Shown here piece after piece: positions 35,424 through 41,195 of a stretch of DNA of 64,000 bases; within the stretch, counting starts at the first letter, position 1; each line of letters starts with the position of its first letter. Where the stretch lies: positions 1,798,001 to 1,862,000 of the forward strand of contig NZ_CP118157.1 of NCBI RefSeq assembly GCF_032878875.1, read 5' to 3'. Made by a program: the position numbers and the translations under genes. The notes under the pieces are model-generated. The model ran no database searches. It saw nothing but the letters and a program-made list of their open reading frames with translations, and was not told the origin of the DNA. The stretch comes from Microbacterium sp. AB. GTDB taxonomy: Bacteria > Actinomycetota > Actinomycetes > Actinomycetales > Microbacteriaceae.

Positions 35424-37148
35424 GTGGCGCCGCCGGCTGAGACCCGCGCCCGCGCCGTCGCGCTCGGACGCGCGGGCGACGAGATCGTGGCCGTCCGGCT
35501 CGACGACGATCCCGAGCGCATCGCGGTCTGCCGCGCGGAGGATCGCGCCGGGCTCGCGGCCTGGGTCGCGAGGGCGGAGGCCGAGGAGCGCCCGCGCTGG
35601 GTCTGGGCGGACACCGCGGCCTGGTACGCGCCGTTGCTCGCGGCGGGCGTGCGCGTCGAGCGCTGCCACGACCTGCGCCTGGGCCGCCGTATCCTGCGCA
35701 CTGCCCTGCCCGACGCCGTGCCGTGGCACGAGGCGCCCGGGTGGGACGCCGCGTTCGAGGAGCCGCCGACGGCCGCCGCCGCGCTGTTCGAGCTGGACGA
35801 CCGCGTCGACGCCGACGACACGGTGGACGCGATCGACGCCGTCGTCACCGAACATGCGCGACAGCGACGCGCCGTCGTCACGGCCTCGAACGCCGGCCGT
35901 CTGCGCCTGCTGCTCGCCGCAGAGTCCGCAGGCGCGCTCGTCGCCGCGGAGCTGCGCGAAGCCGGGCTTCCCTGGGATGCCGACCGTCACGATGCGATCC
36001 TCGCGGCGACGCTCGGGCCGCGCCGCGCGAACGGGCTGCCCGAGCGCATGGAGCAGGCCGCGGCGGCCGTTCGCGAAGCGCTCGGGGATCCGACCCTCGG
36101 TCTCGACTCGCCGCCGCGCGTGCTCCGTGCGCTGCGGGCCGCGGGGGTCCACGTCGACTCCACGAGCAAGTGGGAGCTCGCCCCGCACGACCATCCGGCC
36201 ATCCCGCCGCTGCTCGACTACAAGCGCCTCTCGCGTCTGCTCGCCGCCAACGGATGGGCCTGGCTGGCGGAGTGGGTGCACGACGGGCGCTTCCGCCCCG
36301 TCTACGTCCCCGGCGGCGTGGTGACCGGCCGGTGGGCGTCGTCGGGCGGCGGGGCTCTGCAGATCCCACGCGCGCTGCGTGCCGCGGTCCGGGCCGATCC
36401 GGGATGGCGGATCGTCTCTGCGGACGTCGCGCAGCTCGAGCCGCGCGTGCTCGCCGCGATGGCCCGCGACGAGGGGATGGCCGCCGCCGCGGCCGGTTCC
36501 GACCTGTACGCGGGGATCGTGGCCAGCGGCGCGGTCGCGACGAGGTCCGAGGCGAAGATCGCTGTGCTCGGCGCGATGTACGGCGCGACCACGGGAGACG
36601 CCGGACGTCTCGTGCCGCGTCTGCGAAGGGTGTTCCCGGCCGCCATGGCGCTCGTCGACGCGGCGGCGCGCACCGGGGAGGACGGCGGGATCGTCCGTAC
36701 GTGGCTGGGGCGCACGTCGCCGTCTCCCGACGACGCCTGGTACGAGGAGCAGTCGAGGGCGAGCGGCGGGGACGCGTCCGCCGTCGACGAGAGGCGGGCG
36801 AGGCGATCCGCACGCGACAGGGGACGCTTCACGCGCAACTTCGTCGTACAGGGCACCGCCGCGGAGTGGTCGCTCGCGTGGCTCGCCGATCTGCGGCTGC
36901 GTCTCGCGTCGCTGGGGTCCGCGGCGGACGGACCTGGCGCGCCCGCGTCCGGAGCGGTGTTCTCGGATCGGCCGCACCTCGCCTTCTTCCTCCACGACGA
37001 GGTCCTCGTCCACGCCCCGGCCTCGGTGGCGGAGGAGGCCGCGCAGGCCGTGCGCGACGCGGCGACGGCCGCTGGCCGGCTGCTGTTCGGGGCGTTCCCG
37101 ATCGACTTCCCTCTCGACGTGCGCATCGACGACGACGCGGCGAAGTGA
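35424..37148 (+). CDS. Short family-A DNA polymerase (annotated class: bifunctional 3'-5' exonuclease/DNA polymerase)
   Basis: A 574-aa family-A polymerase lacking the 5' nuclease domain. Polymerase motif A appears as SADVAQLEPRVLA (about residue 333), motif B/O-helix as RSEAKIAVLGAMYGATTGD and motif C as LHDEVLVHAP. The N-terminal 200 residues resemble a degenerate 3'-5' exonuclease fold; the catalytic D-x-E pair is not visible (the site reads VWADTAAW). Common in Actinobacteria beside the zinc-ribbon gene; a repair role is inferred. Start GTG 35424 (MAPPAETRAR) has no clear ribosome-binding site. The gene ends 22 bp before rnpB. Confidence 0.82.
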   Translation: MAPPAETRARAVALGRAGDEIVAVRLDDDPERIAVCRAEDRAGLAAWVARAEAEERPRWVWADTAAWYAPLLAAGVRVERCHDLRLGRRILRTALPDAVPWHEAPGWDAAFEEPPTAAAALFELDDRVDADDTVDAIDAVVTEHARQRRAVVTASNAGRLRLLLAAESAGALVAAELREAGLPWDADRHDAILAATLGPRRANGLPERMEQAAAAVREALGDPTLGLDSPPRVLRALRAAGVHVDSTSKWELAPHDHPAIPPLLDYKRLSRLLAANGWAWLAEWVHDGRFRPVYVPGGVVTGRWASSGGGALQIPRALRAAVRADPGWRIVSADVAQLEPRVLAAMARDEGMAAAAAGSDLYAGIVASGAVATRSEAKIAVLGAMYGATTGDAGRLVPRLRRVFPAAMALVDAAARTGEDGGIVRTWLGRTSPSPDDAWYEEQSRASGGDASAVDERRARRSARDRGRFTRNFVVQGTAAEWSLAWLADLRLRLASLGSAADGPGAPASGAVFSDRPHLAFFLHDEVLVHAPASVAEEAAQAVRDAATAAGRLLFGAFPIDFPLDVRIDDDAAK

Positions 37149-37158
37149 CGGGGCCGCG

Positions 37159-37164
37159 TAGACT
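37159..37164 (+). promoter_or_regulatory. -10 box (TAGACT) of rnpB
   Basis: TAGACT lies 6 nt before the predicted 5' end of RNase P RNA. It is 11 bp beyond the polymerase stop, so rnpB has its own promoter; no good -35 is seen. Confidence 0.55.
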
Positions 37165-37170
37165 CGACGT

Positions 37171-37564
37171 GCGAATGGGTCGGCCGGACGGCCGCGTCGC
37201 GGGCGGTTCTCCGCTCGTGCCGAGGAACGTCCGGGCTCCGCAGGGCAGGGCGGTGGGTAACACCCACCCGGAGCGATCCGCGAGACAGTGCCACAGAGAA
37301 CAGACCGCCGGCGTCCCTTCTGCGTGTCAGAAGGGTCACGGTAAGGGTGAAACGGCGGTGTAAGAGACCACCAGGGGCCGCGGTGACGCGGCCTGCTCGG
37401 CAAACCTCGCCCGGAGCAAGACCAGACAGAGGATGTTGACGCGGCCCGCCGAGTCCTCGGGTAGGTCGCTGGAGCGGCACGGCAACGTGTCGCCGAGAGA
37501 GATGGCCGTCGATGGGGCGAGAGCCCCGGAACAGAACCCGGCGTACAGGCCGGCCCATTCGCCT
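37171..37564 (+). ncRNA. rnpB: RNase P RNA (bacterial type A)
   Basis: Catalytic RNA of RNase P, which matures tRNA 5' ends. The 5' end GCGAATGGGTCGGCC pairs with the 3' end GGCCGGCCCATTCGC to form helix P1. The conserved P4/core segments GAGGAACGTCCGGGCTCC (37223-37240) and CAGAGGATG with the downstream ACAGAACCCGGCGTACAGG are present, and total length is about 392 nt. The gene is complete, but the 34 terminal bases are duplicated downstream as the right end of an inserted island, so its original downstream DNA, including a probable terminator, now lies beyond 40382. Confidence 0.95.
37531..37564 (+). repeat. Left 34-bp direct repeat (attL-like) inside the rnpB 3' end
   Basis: Identical to 40349-40382; begins ACAGAACCCG and ends CATTCGCCT. 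It includes the 3' strand of helix P1. The bases before and after the two copies differ, so the repeat is exactly 34 bp. Confidence 0.93.
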
Positions 37565-37618
37565 AATACCGCTTGATCAGGCTTTTCCTTGAGCCCGACG
37601 CGGTCTCAGTCCGCGCAG

Positions 37619-38023
37619 GGCCGCGTCCCGTTGTGTGGTGGAGTTTCTCGACACGGGCGAGGTCAGCTGTTTCTGATTATGCCGCGGTGAGTTCGGGGAT
37701 GCTGCCCTCCTCGTCTGTCGTGTTCGGCAGCGCCATGGATGCGTCGCTGAAGTAGCAGCGGTCGGCGCTGTCCCATTCGTCGTGCTGCTCGATGAGGACG
37801 TGTCCGGCCAGGCGCAGCAGCGCGGCGGGGTTGGGGAAGGCGCCGACGACGTCGGTGCGGCGCTTGATCTCCTTGTTCAGCCGTTCCAGCGGGTTCGTCG
37901 ACCAGATCTGCTGCCAATGGGCAGCGGGGAACGCGGTGAACGCCAACAGTTCGTCGCGGGCGTCCTCGAGCATCTCGGCCACGGGCGGGTGTGAGCGCTC
38001 GAGCATGCGGACGACCTCCCCGA
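37619..38023 (-). repeat. 405-bp inverted repeat, left arm
   Basis: The reverse complement is the same as 39840-40244 at every position compared, and both arms are exactly 405 bp. It comprises the IS terminus and the last about 113 codons of the transposase. Divergence is abrupt at both ends. Confidence 0.88.
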
Positions 38024-38100
38024 ACTGGGCGGTGACGAGGCTGGCCTTTCCGCGCGGAACGAACACGGTGCGGATGATGGAGGCGACCATTGGGCCGGCG
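37619..38100 (-). pseudogene. IS256-family transposase, C-terminal fragment (left copy)
   Basis: The minus strand encodes the last about 135 residues of a Mutator/IS256 transposase: MVASIIRTVFV, then WSTNPLERLNKEIKRRTDVV, the highly conserved C-terminal block with the final catalytic glutamate region, and the stop at 37677-37679. The N-terminal two thirds are missing; homology ends near 38095-38100, next to an 11-bp repeat (38082-38092 and 38097-38107). The IS terminus appears to begin at GGCCGCGTCCCG (37619). Not functional. Confidence 0.85.
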
Positions 38101-38108
38101 ACCATTGT

Positions 38109-38303
38109 CGTATCAAGCGGTACTTCTACGAGTTGGAGATCGTCGCTCAGCCAGAGCGCATCTACAAGCGAGGCGCGGCGATGGCTGTTCCCGACGACCT
38201 GACCGTCCAGGTCAAGGCCTGGCACAACCTCCGATCCGGCCGGCAACCGGACGAGCTTCCAAACGCGCTACGCACGGAGATCCTGTCCCCTGACACGACG
38301 TAA
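38109..38303 (+). pseudogene. C-terminal fragment of an unknown gene, cut by the left IS remnant
   Basis: An open frame enters from the IS junction and gives RIKRYFYELEIVAQPERIYK, then GAAMAVPDDLTVQV and ends LRTEILSPDTT with TAA at 38301-38303. It has no start upstream of an internal ATG at 38181. The stop is immediately followed by a strong hairpin, as expected for a real gene end. I do not recognise the family. Its truncation implies the IS, or a deletion from it, removed the 5' part. Confidence 0.45.
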
Positions 38304-38336
38304 CCGCCCCTCCCTGCCGAAGCAGGAAGGGGCGGT
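38303..38336. terminator. Hairpin 1 of the island (bidirectional terminator)
   Basis: Arms 38303-38317 and 38322-38336, loop CGAA, 15 bp with one mismatch. It lies between the convergent fragment on the plus strand and the 110-aa gene on the minus strand. Nearly the same sequence recurs at 39141 and 39621. Confidence 0.75.
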
Positions 38337-38363
38337 GCCGTGCCGTGGGAGGAGCGAGCCTGA

Positions 38364-38696
38364 TCAGGCCGGCAAGACGGTAGGCGTCACTACTTCGGCG
38401 CGCCATTCACCTTCCGCGCGCGTAGCCGTGACCGGGAGCCCGGTGATTCCGAGTTCGACAAACGACGCATCAGGTACGAACCGAGCGAAGTAGTCTCCCG
38501 CTGCTGTGAGACAGAACAGCAACGCCTGGACATCGTCTTCGCCGTAGGCGGTGAAGGATTCATCGACGCGGCCATCGGTGTTCTGGATCGTGTACGCGAA
38601 GGCGGGGACCTCATCGTCCTCGCGAGTGATCCGCAGTTCGATCGTCCCGAAGTCGGACGACTCGAGCGACCTGGACAGGTAGGGCGTGTTCGACAT
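38364..38696 (-). CDS. Island protein of unknown function (110 aa), second gene of a pair
   Basis: A soluble acidic protein starting MSNTPYLSRSLESSDFGTIE. The segment FTAYGEDDVQALLFCLTAAG resembles the G-x-D-x-x-Q-A-L helix of small DUF6968-type proteins, but this is a weak likeness. It lacks signals for export. Its ATG is 4 bp downstream of the stop of the cysteine-patterned peptide gene, so they are co-transcribed; the hairpin at 38303 ends the unit. An immunity or partner role for the upstream peptide is possible but only inferred from the pairing. Confidence 0.6.
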   Translation of the reverse strand: MSNTPYLSRSLESSDFGTIELRITREDDEVPAFAYTIQNTDGRVDESFTAYGEDDVQALLFCLTAAGDYFARFVPDASFVELGITGLPVTATRAEGEWRAEVVTPTVLPA

Positions 38697-38700
38697 GTGC

Positions 38701-38970
38701 TCAGCTTGCCGTAGCGAGGCATCCGGCGTAGGTCACGGCGGCAGCTGCCCAGCAGACTGCACGGGCCTGCGGCAACGGGATACGGCGGCAGTTCGCTGAG
38801 AGGAGCTTGTACTCGTTGTCGCACGTCTTCTTGGTGTGCGCCGGAACGATGCGCCCCGCCTTCGCCTCCGACGCTCCGACGACCGAGACGTTGGACACGC
38901 TCGGGACGGCCGGTATGGCGCCCAGCTGAGCGCCTCCAGAGGCCAAAACATAGAACCCCCGTCTCGTCAT
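38701..38970 (-). CDS. Small cysteine-patterned peptide of the island (89 aa)
   Basis: Starts MTRRGFYVLASGG at ATG 38970 and contains four cysteines in its C-terminal half: TCDNEYKLLSANCRRIP, AVCWAAAA and YAGCLATAS. Spacing C-x11-C-x12-C-x10-C suggests two disulfides and an exported or cell-surface peptide. The N-terminus is mildly hydrophobic with a possible cleavage after ASEAKA, but it is not a classic signal peptide and no good ribosome-binding site precedes it, so the true N-terminus is uncertain. The frame is open up to 39186, but that extension would read through hairpin 2. Confidence 0.5.
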   Translation of the reverse strand: MTRRGFYVLASGGAQLGAIPAVPSVSNVSVVGASEAKAGRIVPAHTKKTCDNEYKLLSANCRRIPLPQARAVCWAAAAVTYAGCLATAS

Positions 38971-39140
38971 GTGCGTGTGGCCCGATCGCGAGTGTTGGTA
39001 CCCACGTGGAAGAGCTGGACCTCGCTCACTCTCGCATGGAGGAGAGACGCAGCGCTGTCGGCATTTCGGGGGACAAAGCCAGTCCAAGGCGAGCGGCGTT
39101 GAATCGACGTCAAGCGCGACCTCGGCCTCTGCACAACGAA

Positions 39141-39175
39141 ACCGCCCCTCCCTGCCGAAGCAATGAAGGGGCGGT
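39141..39175 (-). terminator. Hairpin 2 of the island
   Basis: The left arm (39141-39155) is identical to that of hairpin 1 and the loop CGAA is kept; the right arm has a small insertion (CAATGAAG for CAGGAAG). It lies 8 bp after the DUF2283 stop and is followed on the minus strand by TTTCGTTG. Confidence 0.72.
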
Positions 39176-39182
39176 CTCCCGG

Positions 39183-39395
39183 TCACCCGGTGAGATCTTC
39201 TGCCCGCAACAGTCGCGAGGCCTCAAGAATCTCTACTCCGATGAGGTGGCCGTCTCGGTCGAAGTCGAGGATGATTTCTCCCGTCCCGCTAGGGTTCCGG
39301 ATCTCGGCGATCTGTTGCTCGGCTTCGCCGGTTCGTGGCTCTCGGCCGATGGGGATGTAGGCCGCATCCGCTTCGGGATCATATCGGACGCTCAC
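39183..39395 (-). CDS. DUF2283 family protein
   Basis: A 70-aa protein with the DUF2283 signature: MSVRYDPEADAAYIPIG at the N-terminus and EIILDFDRDGHLIGVEILEA in the C-terminal half. Members are small, often plasmid- or island-borne and frequently paired with DUF4258-type partners; function unknown. The start is GTG 39395 inside a GTGA overlap with a signal-peptide-like mini-ORF. Hairpin 2 terminates it. Confidence 0.85.
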   Translation of the reverse strand: MSVRYDPEADAAYIPIGREPRTGEAEQQIAEIRNPSGTGEIILDFDRDGHLIGVEILEASRLLRAEDLTG

Positions 39396-39469
39396 AGGGG
39401 TGCCGGTGTAGCCAGTCCGAGCGCAAGCGCACCCACCGCGATCGCGCCTATGAACGCATGTTTCTTCAA
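39392..39469 (-). CDS. Signal-peptide-like mini-ORF overlapping DUF2283
   Basis: A 25-codon frame starting at TTG 39469: MKKHAFIGAIAVGALALG, then LATPAPL and stop. It has the form of a complete Sec signal peptide (Lys-Lys, hydrophobic core, Ala-Thr-Pro-Ala). A run of seven G lies about 6 nt upstream of the TTG and may act as ribosome-binding site. Its TGA overlaps the GTG of DUF2283. It may be a translational leader, or the remnant of a secreted protein truncated by deletion; too short to be certain it is made. Confidence 0.35.
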   Translation of the reverse strand: MKKHAFIGAIAVGALALGLATPAPL

Positions 39470-39620
39470 CTTCAACCCCCCCGATTGTTGTGGATTCGGC
39501 TGGGGAGCCCCATCAGCCGCCAGCATTCAAGCAAGATGCGCCCGTACCTTCAACCTCTATGACACGGCGCGTCGCGCGCCTTGGAACACCGGCACACGCG
39601 ACCAACCTGAACCGACGAAT
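39470..39620. other. Upstream region of the mini-ORF/DUF2283 unit, no gene seen
   Basis: About 150 bp of lower-GC sequence between the mini-ORF and hairpin 3. It should carry the promoter of the DUF2283 transcript, but I cannot point to a convincing -35/-10 pair. Confidence 0.4.
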
Positions 39621-39646
39621 CCGCCCCTCCCTGCCGCAACAGGAAG
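39621..39646 (-). terminator. Hairpin 3 of the island, right arm cut off
   Basis: The left arm CCGCCCCTCCCTG (39621-39633) matches hairpins 1 and 2, but the right arm stops after CAGGAAG at 39646, where IS256-like coding sequence begins. It marks the junction at which the IS remnant replaced the rest of the cassette. Confidence 0.6.
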
Positions 39647-40244
39647 CGACCGCGTTCATCGGCGCGGCCCCATATGAGCGCGCCGAGGACCGTGTCGCGG
39701 TCCGCAACGGGTCGCGTCCGCGGACGCTGACCACCACGGGCGGAGATCTGGATCTGCGGATCCCGAAGCTGCGACAATGGTCGTTCTTCCCTTCGCTGCT
39801 GGAACGACGCCGCAGGGGATCAGGCGTTGTTCGCGGTCGTCGGGGAGGTCGTCCGCATGCTCGAGCGCTCACACCCGCCCGTGGCCGAGATGCTCGAGGA
39901 CGCCCGCGACGAACTGTTGGCGTTCACCGCGTTCCCCGCTGCCCATTGGCAGCAGATCTGGTCGACGAACCCGCTGGAACGGCTGAACAAGGAGATCAAG
40001 CGCCGCACCGACGTCGTCGGCGCCTTCCCCAACCCCGCCGCGCTGCTGCGCCTGGCCGGACACGTCCTCATCGAGCAGCACGACGAATGGGACAGCGCCG
40101 ACCGCTGCTACTTCAGCGACGCATCCATGGCGCTGCCGAACACGACAGACGAGGAGGGCAGCATCCCCGAACTCACCGCGGCATAATCAGAAACAGCTGA
40201 CCTCGCCCGTGTCGAGAAACTCCACCACACAACGGGACGCGGCC
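39647..40244 (+). pseudogene. IS256-family transposase, internally deleted and frameshifted (right copy)
   Basis: The plus strand begins with an N-terminal transposase segment (ATAFIGAAPYERAEDRVAV, RNGSRPRTLTTTGGDLDL, PSLLERRRR), shifts frame at about 39820, continues as DQALFAVV and then jumps directly to the C-terminal block EVVRMLERSHPP through the stop at 40184-40186. About two thirds of the protein, including most of the catalytic core, is deleted. The IS end lies at about 40244. It is not the same deletion as the left copy, so these are two separate decay events of one IS type. Confidence 0.88.
39840..40244 (+). repeat. 405-bp inverted repeat, right arm
   Basis: Reverse-complement partner of 37619-38023; the encoded C-terminal residues are identical in both copies. 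Confidence 0.88.
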
Positions 40245-40348
40245 TTCCTGCCCATCGACGACCATCAGGCGTCAGTATACAAAATCCTGGTCAGACCGAA
40301 CTTACAACACCATCCGTTATCAGCCCCTAACTCCCATTTTCAGAGGGC
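40245..40348. other. AT-richer strip between the right IS remnant and attR, no gene seen
   Basis: About 104 bp, clearly richer in A/T than anything else in the window (for example AGTATACAAAATCC and CAACACCATCCGTTATC). No ORF of note. It may hold recombinase arm sites of the lost integration module or the original flank of the IS. Confidence 0.5.
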
Positions 40349-40382
40349 ACAGAACCCGGCGTACAGGCCGGCCCATTCGCCT
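40349..40382 (+). repeat. Right 34-bp direct repeat (attR-like), duplicate of the rnpB 3' end
   Basis: Exact copy of 37531-37564, an rnpB tail with no rnpB body before it. Downstream sequence continues into the native chromosome. Confidence 0.93.
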
Positions 40383-40388
40383 CGGACG

Positions 40389-40424
40389 GCGAAAGCCCCG
40401 GCTCTCGGGAGCCGGGGCTTTCGC
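40389..40424. terminator. Bidirectional terminator, probably the ancestral rnpB terminator; also serves ppgK
   Basis: A 16-bp perfect stem (40389-40404 with 40409-40424), loop TCGG, with GAAAG/CTTTC at the base so it works in both directions. It begins 6 bp after attR, where rnpB would end if the island were absent, and lies 16 bp past the ppgK stop. Confidence 0.88.
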
Positions 40425-40439
40425 GATGTCTCGAGGGTG

Positions 40440-41195
40440 TCAGGCGAGCGCGAGGGATGCCGCGCCGATGATGCCGGCGTTGTTGCGGTGCACCGCGGTG
40501 ACCATCTTGGCGCGCGTCGTGACGTAGGGCAGGAACTTCTCGGGGTTCTTCGAGACCCCGCCGCCGACGACGAGGAGGTCGGGGGAGAAGAGGAACTCCA
40601 CGTGGGCGTAGAACTTCTGAAGGCGATGCCCCCACTTCTCCCAGCTGAGCCCCTCGCGCTCACGGGCGGTCGCGGCGGCGTAGCGCTCGATCGACTCGCC
40701 CTTCCAGATGAGGTGGCCGAGCTCGGTGTTCGGGATGAGCACGCCGTCGTAGATGAACGCCGAGCCGATGCCCGTGCCGAGCGTGGTGAGGATCGTGAGG
40801 CCCTTCTGCCCCTTCGCGGCGCCGAAGCGCGCCTCGGACAGGCCCGCCGCGTCGGCGTCGTTGACGAAGTGGATGTCGCGGCCGAGGCCGTCCTCGAAGA
40901 ACCTCTCCGCCTCGAAGTCGATCCACTCGTGCGAGATGTTCGCCGCGGAGAGGGTCTTGCCGTCCTTCACGATCGCGGGGAAGCACACGCCCAGCGGGAG
41001 GCCTGCTGCGTCGGCCCCGAGCAGCTCAATCAGACGATGCGCCGTCTTCAGCACGTCCTTCGGATGGGCTCCCTGGGGAGTGTCGATCCGCACCCGGTCA
41101 CTCAGCAGGGTGCCCTCGGACAGGTCGACGATTCCGGCCTTCATACCGGTTCCGCCGATGTCGATCCCGACGGCACGATCCACAGTCTTCGCCAT
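40440..41195 (-). CDS. ppgK: Polyphosphate glucokinase (ROK family)
   Basis: Phosphorylates glucose using polyphosphate or ATP. The 251-aa protein has the N-terminal phosphate loop VGIDIGGTGMKAGIVD (residues about 9-24), the glucose-binding FVNDADAAG and the TLGTGIGSAF loop (about 140-149), and it lacks the zinc CXCGXXGC motif, as is usual for PpgK. ATG 41195 follows GAGAGGATGG. It is flanked by terminators, so it is probably monocistronic. Confidence 0.9.
   Translation of the reverse strand: MAKTVDRAVGIDIGGTGMKAGIVDLSEGTLLSDRVRIDTPQGAHPKDVLKTAHRLIELLGADAAGLPLGVCFPAIVKDGKTLSAANISHEWIDFEAERFFEDGLGRDIHFVNDADAAGLSEARFGAAKGQKGLTILTTLGTGIGSAFIYDGVLIPNTELGHLIWKGESIERYAAATAREREGLSWEKWGHRLQKFYAHVEFLFSPDLLVVGGGVSKNPEKFLPYVTTRAKMVTAVHRNNAGIIGAASLALA

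Follow-up and report, generated by a model that had tools for sequence, protein, structure and literature searches.

We asked what kind of DNA lies at the 3' end of the RNase P RNA gene (rnpB) in Microbacterium sp. AB, and which enzyme could have put it there. The window is the whole stretch of 64,000 nucleotides that was analysed. In it, the class A rnpB (37176..37561, plus strand) is complete to the covariance model (RF00010, 267.2 bits, E 1.3e-86, full model 1-367). The gene runs out in a 34-bp sequence that doubles as its 3' end (attL, 37531..37564, plus strand) and returns as an exact direct repeat, a displaced copy of the rnpB tail, 2818 bp further on when measured from start to start (attR, 40349..40382, plus strand). 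The bases flanking the two copies differ on either side, and the GC content of the island is 64.4% as compared with 70.6% in the flanks. The original prediction, that a perfect 34-bp repeat of the rnpB tail brackets lower-GC DNA with IS fragments and small genes and that rnpB stays intact because the left copy supplies its 3' end, was borne out in both parts.

Two IS256/Mutator-type pieces, each with the C-terminal part of a transposase, lie at 37619..38023 (minus strand; PF00872, E 1.9e-28 for ORF 37677-38246) and at 39840..40244 (plus strand; PF00872, E 4e-27 for 39827-40186); their shared arm is a 405-bp inverted repeat of 100% identity. The right copy is overlapped by an ORF with an N-terminal piece of such a transposase (39490..40200, plus strand; PF00872, E 6.4e-17). 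Between the copies we find small genes on the minus strand. One encodes a protein of 110 aa with two other database relatives and a weak resemblance to DUF6968 below the Pfam gathering score (38364..38696); upstream of it there is a possible small gene whose start codon was picked by eye (38701..38970), part of an ORF without a Pfam match (38701-39186); and a third encodes a DUF2283 protein of 70 aa (39183..39395; PF10049, E 3e-14). The right end of the element (40245..40348) lies between the IS and attR. Behind attR there is a G+C-rich inverted repeat with 16-bp perfect arms (40389..40424), which may once have served as the rnpB terminator and now lies 2.8 kb from that gene; similar hairpins were read by eye directly after the tail in several empty sites of relatives. 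A promoter and terminator scan of 37100-40500 gave 4 terminator-like sites where 1.8 were expected, and this hairpin is absent from the output of the scan, which requires a T run. The next gene (40440..41195, minus strand; PF00480) is a ROK-family gene, like ppgK as an earlier reader named it, and by synteny it is the chromosomal neighbour in relatives. As far as sequence comparison goes, we can confirm the island as a decayed, IS-riddled, lower-GC relic of a mobile element at the 3' end of rnpB.

The state of the site in relatives agrees with this. A single tail copy is present in 18 of 20 fetched relatives, and in 14 of the 18 ppgK follows 7-139 bp after the 30-nt tail. In the single-copy locus whose rnpB and ppgK are most similar to those of the window (L056) this distance is 54 bp; calculated from the coordinates with the same measure, it would be 60 bp in the window if the insert were removed. 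Furthermore, we searched 366 same-genus genomes for a 24-bp core of the tail, allowing at most 1 mismatch. The core is present in 339 genomes, the reversed control pattern had no match in any genome listed, and only 17 genomes, among them that of the window with two copies and no more, hold the core twice. Fourteen of these (window included) have islands of 2035 to 39,374 bp between the copies; 14 left/right pairs were compared. The other three (G254, G317, G407) were left out of the island count, as recognisable duplications in which either the rnpB-ppgK stretch occurs twice or the downstream flank is common to both copies. A duplication of the segment with the rnpB tail, whether homologous or illegitimate recombination caused it and with no mobile element involved, is therefore real for these 3 of the 17. 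For the window we consider it extremely improbable: its copies diverge from position 34 on, no common DNA follows them, and what comes behind the left copy matches an element family. Empty single-copy sites had been named beforehand as support for the prediction, and two copies with no island as evidence against it; the former were found, and as to the latter, each of the 17 two-copy genomes has either an island (14) or a recognisable duplication (3).

The element family is recognised by its integrase. An integrase piece of 198 aa from one genome (G050) matches 8 of the 366 genomes, G050 included, and all eight places adjoin the rnpB tail; seven of the eight are open integrases. The two that were scanned both match PF00589 (E 7.2e-19 and 5.4e-16). 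In all seven aligned integrases R219, H328, R331, H354 and Y364 are invariant, as in the catalytic domain of tyrosine recombinases; we take these to be the catalytic residues (R, H-x-x-R, H, Y). Between the integrase stop codons and the end of the 30-nt tail there are 15-30 bp. Thus tyrosine integrases at the rnpB tail, the second kind of support that had been proposed, do exist. The integrase is open in 7 of the 14 islands and broken into pieces in 4, and the window has a remnant of about 55 bp only.

This remnant was found with a profile made from the left ends of the 13 other elements, with the repeat excluded. It matches the window at 37563-37620 (E 1.1e-6), the next best match in the 64 kb having E 2.1; in the 18 single-copy loci the best match within 2.5 kb behind the tail has E 5.4. 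The matched DNA (37563..37618, minus strand) comprises the 3' end of an integrase gene that would read toward rnpB and the left arm, with the motifs TGATCAGG..TTT and AGTCCGC. In a pairwise test the mean score of the window's left end was reached by 0 of 500 controls and its maximum score by 9 of 500. The likeness of the window's right end to other right ends is not significant, random pieces of the window being as good in 26 of 500 cases (mean) and 44 of 500 (maximum). Since the left-end profile matches in the window and the same integrase lies next to rnpB in relatives, the lost recombinase is, judging from these similarities, identified as a member of this tyrosine integrase family. The prediction that rnpB had served as a recombinase attachment site is supported by the family; that the recombinase gene was lost has to be amended, since some 55 bp at its 3' end are still there.

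A model that includes the window (R1, 14 members) extends the count. At E 0.01 it matches 88 of the 366 genomes, and many of the matches lie elsewhere than the tail; we counted places that abut the rnpB tail with E at most 2e-7. Weaker matches beginning at the tail, such as those of G029, G271, G293, G114, G275 and G002 with E 6e-6 to 0.0074, were disregarded, as R1 includes the last tail letters. In this way, besides the 14 members of the model, 7 further genomes show the left end of an island at rnpB (G071, G022, G090, G117, G323, G215 and G364); the RNase P RNA was confirmed in all of the first six, and the contig of G364 begins within the rnpB tail.

Could the IS copies themselves have made the island? 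In such a composite-transposon or IS event the inverted IS256-type copies would have delivered the DNA between them at the end of rnpB, leaving the 34-bp repeat as a target duplication or by-product. The copies are indeed inverted and identical over 405 bp, with small genes between them. However, target duplications of the IS256 family measure about 8-9 bp and a short one should abut the outer IS ends, whereas here the repeats are 34 bp long and the IS arms sit 54 and 104 bp inside them. Moreover, the 54-bp left spacer is sequence of the integrase-element family, and the islands of 13 other genomes have the same left end, 11 of them with the integrase open (7) or in pieces (4). We regard an IS event as highly improbable.

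We propose, with a high degree of confidence, that the island is a degraded integrative element, either a temperate phage or a satellite of phages. Its tyrosine integrase would have joined the attP borne by the element, a copy of the rnpB tail, with the attB at the 3' end of the chromosomal rnpB. The sequences themselves show the repeat, sites that are empty, integrases of the family beside rnpB, the remnant and, in circular form, a phage of the family that carries a free attP (see below). That the integrase catalyses this reaction, where exactly the crossover falls and in which order the element decayed are inferred. The crossover most likely falls inside CCCGGCGTACAGGCCG, repeat positions 6-21 counted from CAGAACC, which lies within the inverted repeat CCGGC-GTACAG-GCCGG. 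Integration keeps rnpB intact, its 3' end being restored by the left copy, and shifts the old end with its hairpin beyond the insert. IS256-type DNA begins in the window directly behind the last 55 bp or so of the integrase gene, the remainder of which is missing; the window is without a working recombinase, and the element can probably not move on its own.

Potentially, the IS copies and small genes could have come from another element and settled between an older att pair, so that they would not be the integrase element's own cargo. Accretion at the rnpB site seems to occur: one genome (G096) has a second left-end motif behind the right repeat (E 0.0042 in one search, E 4.5e-4 in another). 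Also, a nucleotide comparison of the window's island with the first set of fetched loci, two of which hold islands (L041 and L042), gave no match. Yet the window's genome has only two tail copies, and the contents of family elements, which range from relics to a 39-kb prophage, differ widely anyway. We therefore consider accretion in the window rather unlikely. Elements of 9-16 kb hold the integrase and few virion genes; among ten cargo proteins, PADLOC gave matches for two, and we ascribe no role in defence to the window.

Is the integrase tied to rnpB? We analysed its best 80 relatives in named genomes, nearly all of them Actinomycetota. The fetched DNA holds an RNase P RNA gene at 54 of the 80 loci. 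At 42 of the 80 the integrase is convergent with this gene and at most 200 bp from the RNA 3' end (23-34 bp in 33 of the 42). The 26 loci without an RNase P gene in the fetched DNA meet a contig end in some cases (e.g. L111) and have different DNA after the integrase in others. Of the 80 named loci, 57 were scanned with ARAGORN, and none of these 57 gave a tRNA or tmRNA. The family also uses other sites, and a sister group has the 3' end of a DUF520 gene as its target. Mapped on the integrase tree, the convergent-rnpB label takes 18 changes, so that, as labelled, the target is no fixed property of one clade; this quick tree, with 31 of its 86 inner branches open, is no proof that rnpB targeting arose only once. 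On this evidence rnpB is a repeated target of one integrase family, mostly in Actinomycetota, and not an uncommon integration target as the earlier view had it.

One relative (L164) appears to be a phage of this family in circular form, with its attP free; this holds for L164 and not for the window's own element. L164 measures 14,974 bp, has a 127-bp terminal repeat, for which it was taken as circular, and carries portal, terminase, major head and tail matches besides the integrase and the rnpB tail; Rfam detects no RNase P RNA gene in it. A 15-kb prophage integrated at rnpB (G406) is 99% identical to it in the portal, 96% in the terminase, 97% in the head protein and 81% in the integrase. Among phage records, 1505 match the integrase. 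Among the matches listed, the best well-covered ones reach an identity of about 37% (Arthrobacter phages Kukla and TripleJ), and two records have a place at 60-80% identity that is not among the 40 matches listed. All 161 plasmid records with matches stay below 60%. The sole match of a 37-bp tail query in phage records (MT835553) was rejected as attP evidence, its surroundings looking like an ordinary rnpB by eye.

To our knowledge, the genes of structural RNAs that serve integrases as targets are those for tRNA and tmRNA. An integrase family at an essential ribozyme gene would be a third kind, and it spans empty and occupied sites, stages of decay, and phages both as prophages and in a circular form with attP free. 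Such att sites could be used for genetic tools in Actinomycetota, island finders restricted to tRNA and tmRNA genes would miss these elements, and the ending and processing of RNase P RNA with a displaced downstream region becomes testable. More speculatively, and with considerable doubt on our part, rnpB may be a phylum-wide docking site of phages and satellites where integration has a functional price and use. In every lysogen the last stretch of the RNase P RNA (the 3' strand of helix P1) would be phage-borne, with the natural end region displaced by kilobases. Transcription of rnpB would collide head-on with the integrase gene, which lies 15-30 bp beyond the RNA end, and could silence it for as long as the prophage stays integrated; if true, lysogeny could be tied to RNase P RNA expression.

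In the main texts of the literature searched, as far as these were available, we found no description of rnpB as an attachment site; an earlier mention is possible. It is not an attachment site in the available parts of PMC8776855, PMC2705793, PMC4524478, PMC3541175, PMC12424338, PMC12884075, PMC6582537 and PMC2516327, and those of PMC10673834 and PMC3701705 mention both "rnpB" and "attB". Like small tailed phages and PICI-like satellites, rnpB elements of 9-16 kb have an integrase and few virion genes; "satellite" is a candidate label, with putative helper dependence, and serves as a lead only. With the dusA-targeting integrases, as described in the available part of PMC4482086, the family shares the reuse of one conserved chromosomal gene across many genomes by prophages and islands, whereas dusA integrases use the 5' end of a protein gene and the rnpB family the 3' end of an essential ribozyme gene. 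The TIGER/Islander resource (PMC12424338, in the part available) assigns 33.8% of sites to tRNA/tmRNA, 43.4% to protein-coding and 22.8% to intergenic DNA, with no rnpB class named there, and the available part of the Islander paper treats tRNA and tmRNA genes as sites. With the islands and prophages of the Islander class the rnpB elements have in common an integrase near one end, a repeat at both ends that reproduces the 3' terminus of a structural RNA gene, a target gene restored by the element's copy and a displaced fragment at the far end; they differ in having the RNase P RNA gene as target, and not a tRNA or tmRNA gene.

The tail (3' end) of rnpB, the RNase P RNA gene (37176-37561; RF00010, 267 bits), occurs in the window as an exact 34-bp repeat at 37531-37564 and 40349-40382. 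As originally predicted, the copies bracket IS-bearing DNA of lower GC content (64.4% compared with 70.6% in the flanks). The insert holds two pieces of Mutator/IS256-type transposase genes, which share 405 identical bp and are inverted relative to each other, as well as a DUF2283 gene and further small ORFs. Between the small genes there are three copies of a C-rich, hairpin-like and terminator-like repeat (CCGCCCCTCCCTGCCG..; 38289-38329, 39127-39167 and 39606-39646). The genome is a single contig of 3.64 Mb. The IS arms raise the question of a composite transposon, but this explanation is disfavoured by the length of the repeat and by the spacers that separate the arms from the repeats. A plain duplication of the rnpB tail is likewise disfavoured, in this case by the flanks of the two copies. 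Most likely, an element bearing attP integrated at the 3' end of rnpB through tyrosine-recombinase exchange, and subsequently decayed by IS256-type insertions and deletions.

It had been proposed that the recombinase gene was lost, and this is right for the bulk of the gene, but its last codons persist. We derived a profile from 13 other elements, using the 60 bp that follow the left repeat but not the repeat itself. Its best match in the 64-kb window is 37563-37620 (E 1.1e-6), and the second-best (E 2.1) is on the opposite strand and close to the island's own right end. In a pairwise test of left ends, the mean score of 18.8 was equalled by none of 500 random window pieces and the maximum score by 9. 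The matching stretch contains AGTCCGC, the reverse complement of the integrase codons A-D-S-x-R-T, and the shared IS arm begins at 37619. Taken together, these observations mean that the integrase has been reduced to its final codons. The right end of the island did not match other right ends significantly (26 and 44 of 500 random pieces were as good).

Next, we consider how often the site is occupied. A 24-bp core of the tail is found in 339 of 366 same-genus genomes and occurs twice in 17. Fourteen of these, the window included, carry an insert of 2035 to 39,374 bp with tail copies at both ends; the remaining three (G254, G317, G407) proved to be duplications and were removed from the island count, so that two copies were never seen without either an insert or a duplication. 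In G254 (L239-L240), rnpB and ppgK occur twice within a 24.1-kb stretch, which may reflect either a tandem duplication or an error of assembly. An open integrase is present in seven of the 14 islands (G278, G282, G241, G316, G201, G378, G406), broken pieces of one in four (G050, G096, G408, G412), and the left-end motif alone in three (the window, G077, G083). All seven open integrases read toward rnpB, and 15-30 bp separate their stops from where the 30-nt tail ends. The integrase piece of G050 matches eight of the 366 genomes (G050 included), in all eight at rnpB. The left-end model adds seven genomes with an end at rnpB (G071, G022, G090, G117, G323, G215, G364), in which no second tail copy was found at the 24-bp-core threshold. 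In summary, at least 21 of the 366 genomes are or were occupied.

Empty sites were found as well. A 21-bp tail pattern (at most two mismatches) is present in 167 of 198 relatives, and 18 of 20 fetched loci have a single copy. The chromosomal neighbour ppgK follows 7-139 bp behind the tail in 14 of these 18, three have 0.9-2.5 kb of other DNA in between (L043, L049, L052), and one has a different ppgK arrangement (L059). On the 18 loci the left-end profile gave no convincing match (best E 5.4, distant from the tail).

We compared the left and right tail copies in 14 pairs, counting from the C of CAGAACC. They agree in all pairs at positions 6-15 and 17-21, in 12, 12, 9 and 12 pairs at positions 2, 3, 4 and 5, and in 13, 12 and 13 at positions 16, 22 and 30, beyond which the similarity drops. 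Seven pairs disagree within the first five bases, where the left copy reads CAGAA in all 14. Together with the identity further on, this fits a strand crossover between positions 6 and 21, a stretch that contains the inverted repeat CCGGC-GTACAG-GCCGG. In RNase P RNA, this part of the tail falls within the conserved region at the 3' end and the 3' strand of helix P1.

Several of the elements resemble phages. That of G201 is a prophage-like element of 39 kb with terminase, portal, head and tape-measure matches. The 15,149-bp element of G406 matches all 15 compared proteins of the phage contig L164 (IMGVR_UViG_3300042923_000957) at 67% to 99% identity. L164 is a circular-looking tailed phage genome of 14,974 bp with a 127-bp terminal repeat and portal, terminase, head and tail matches; in it the rnpB tail adjoins an rnpB-type integrase, that is, a free attP, and Rfam finds no RNase P RNA gene. 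Among elements of 9-16 kb, those of G278, G241 and G316 have a tape-measure-type gene and those of G282 and G378 a capsid gene. Elements of this size at rnpB with either gene among the scanned proteins (L073, L075, L069, L071, L079) may be small phages or phage satellites. In G096, a second left end behind the right repeat (E 0.0042 in one search, 4.5e-4 in another) is a sign of tandem accretion. PADLOC matched cargo proteins of two rnpB elements (L245:4156-5343, L042:5382-6542) to the ShosA model and a TIR effector.

The integrase family extends well beyond the genus. Of 432 confirmed relatives in the genome collection, the best 80 come from, among others, Nocardioides, Pimelobacter, Mycobacterium, Blastococcus, Geodermatophilus, Kineococcus and Janibacter, and comprise a few records labelled outside Actinomycetota (L105, L124, L150). 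Four loci of these 80 belong to Microbacterium and are already in the same-genus set. RNase P RNA was found in the fetched DNA of 54 loci (14, 18, 14 and 8 of 20 by batch). The integrase is convergent with rnpB in 42 of the 54, its stop at most 200 bp from the RNA 3' end (23-34 bp in 33 of the 42); it is directed away in six and lies at a longer distance in six. Thus rnpB, which the original prediction considered an uncommon target, is the commonest among the loci examined. In the Mycobacteriaceae loci L128, L134, L136 and L137, a related integrase at rnpB is reversed, so that its frame opens where rnpB ends (3'). In the 57 of the best 80 loci that were scanned with ARAGORN, no tRNA was detected. 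The convergent arrangement is clustered on the integrase tree (none of 500 shuffles as low), yet it requires 18 changes. In some of the 26 loci with no rnpB, different DNA lies behind the integrase, and a Microbacterium sister group lies at the 3' end of a conserved gene, which in the single case tested is a DUF520 gene of yajQ type (PF04461, E 1.4e-60); the family therefore seems to switch targets. The sister-group loci (L268, L270, L271, L273-L278; matches near 1500) have arm motifs in common with the rnpB elements, and their integrases are 35-41% identical to those at rnpB (L273, L275, L276, L277; a short piece in L274).

In a full-text literature search that covered part of the key papers, we saw no account of rnpB as an attachment site. 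The elements work in the same way as tRNA and tmRNA islands, but those target tRNA or tmRNA genes, whereas the elements described here target rnpB.
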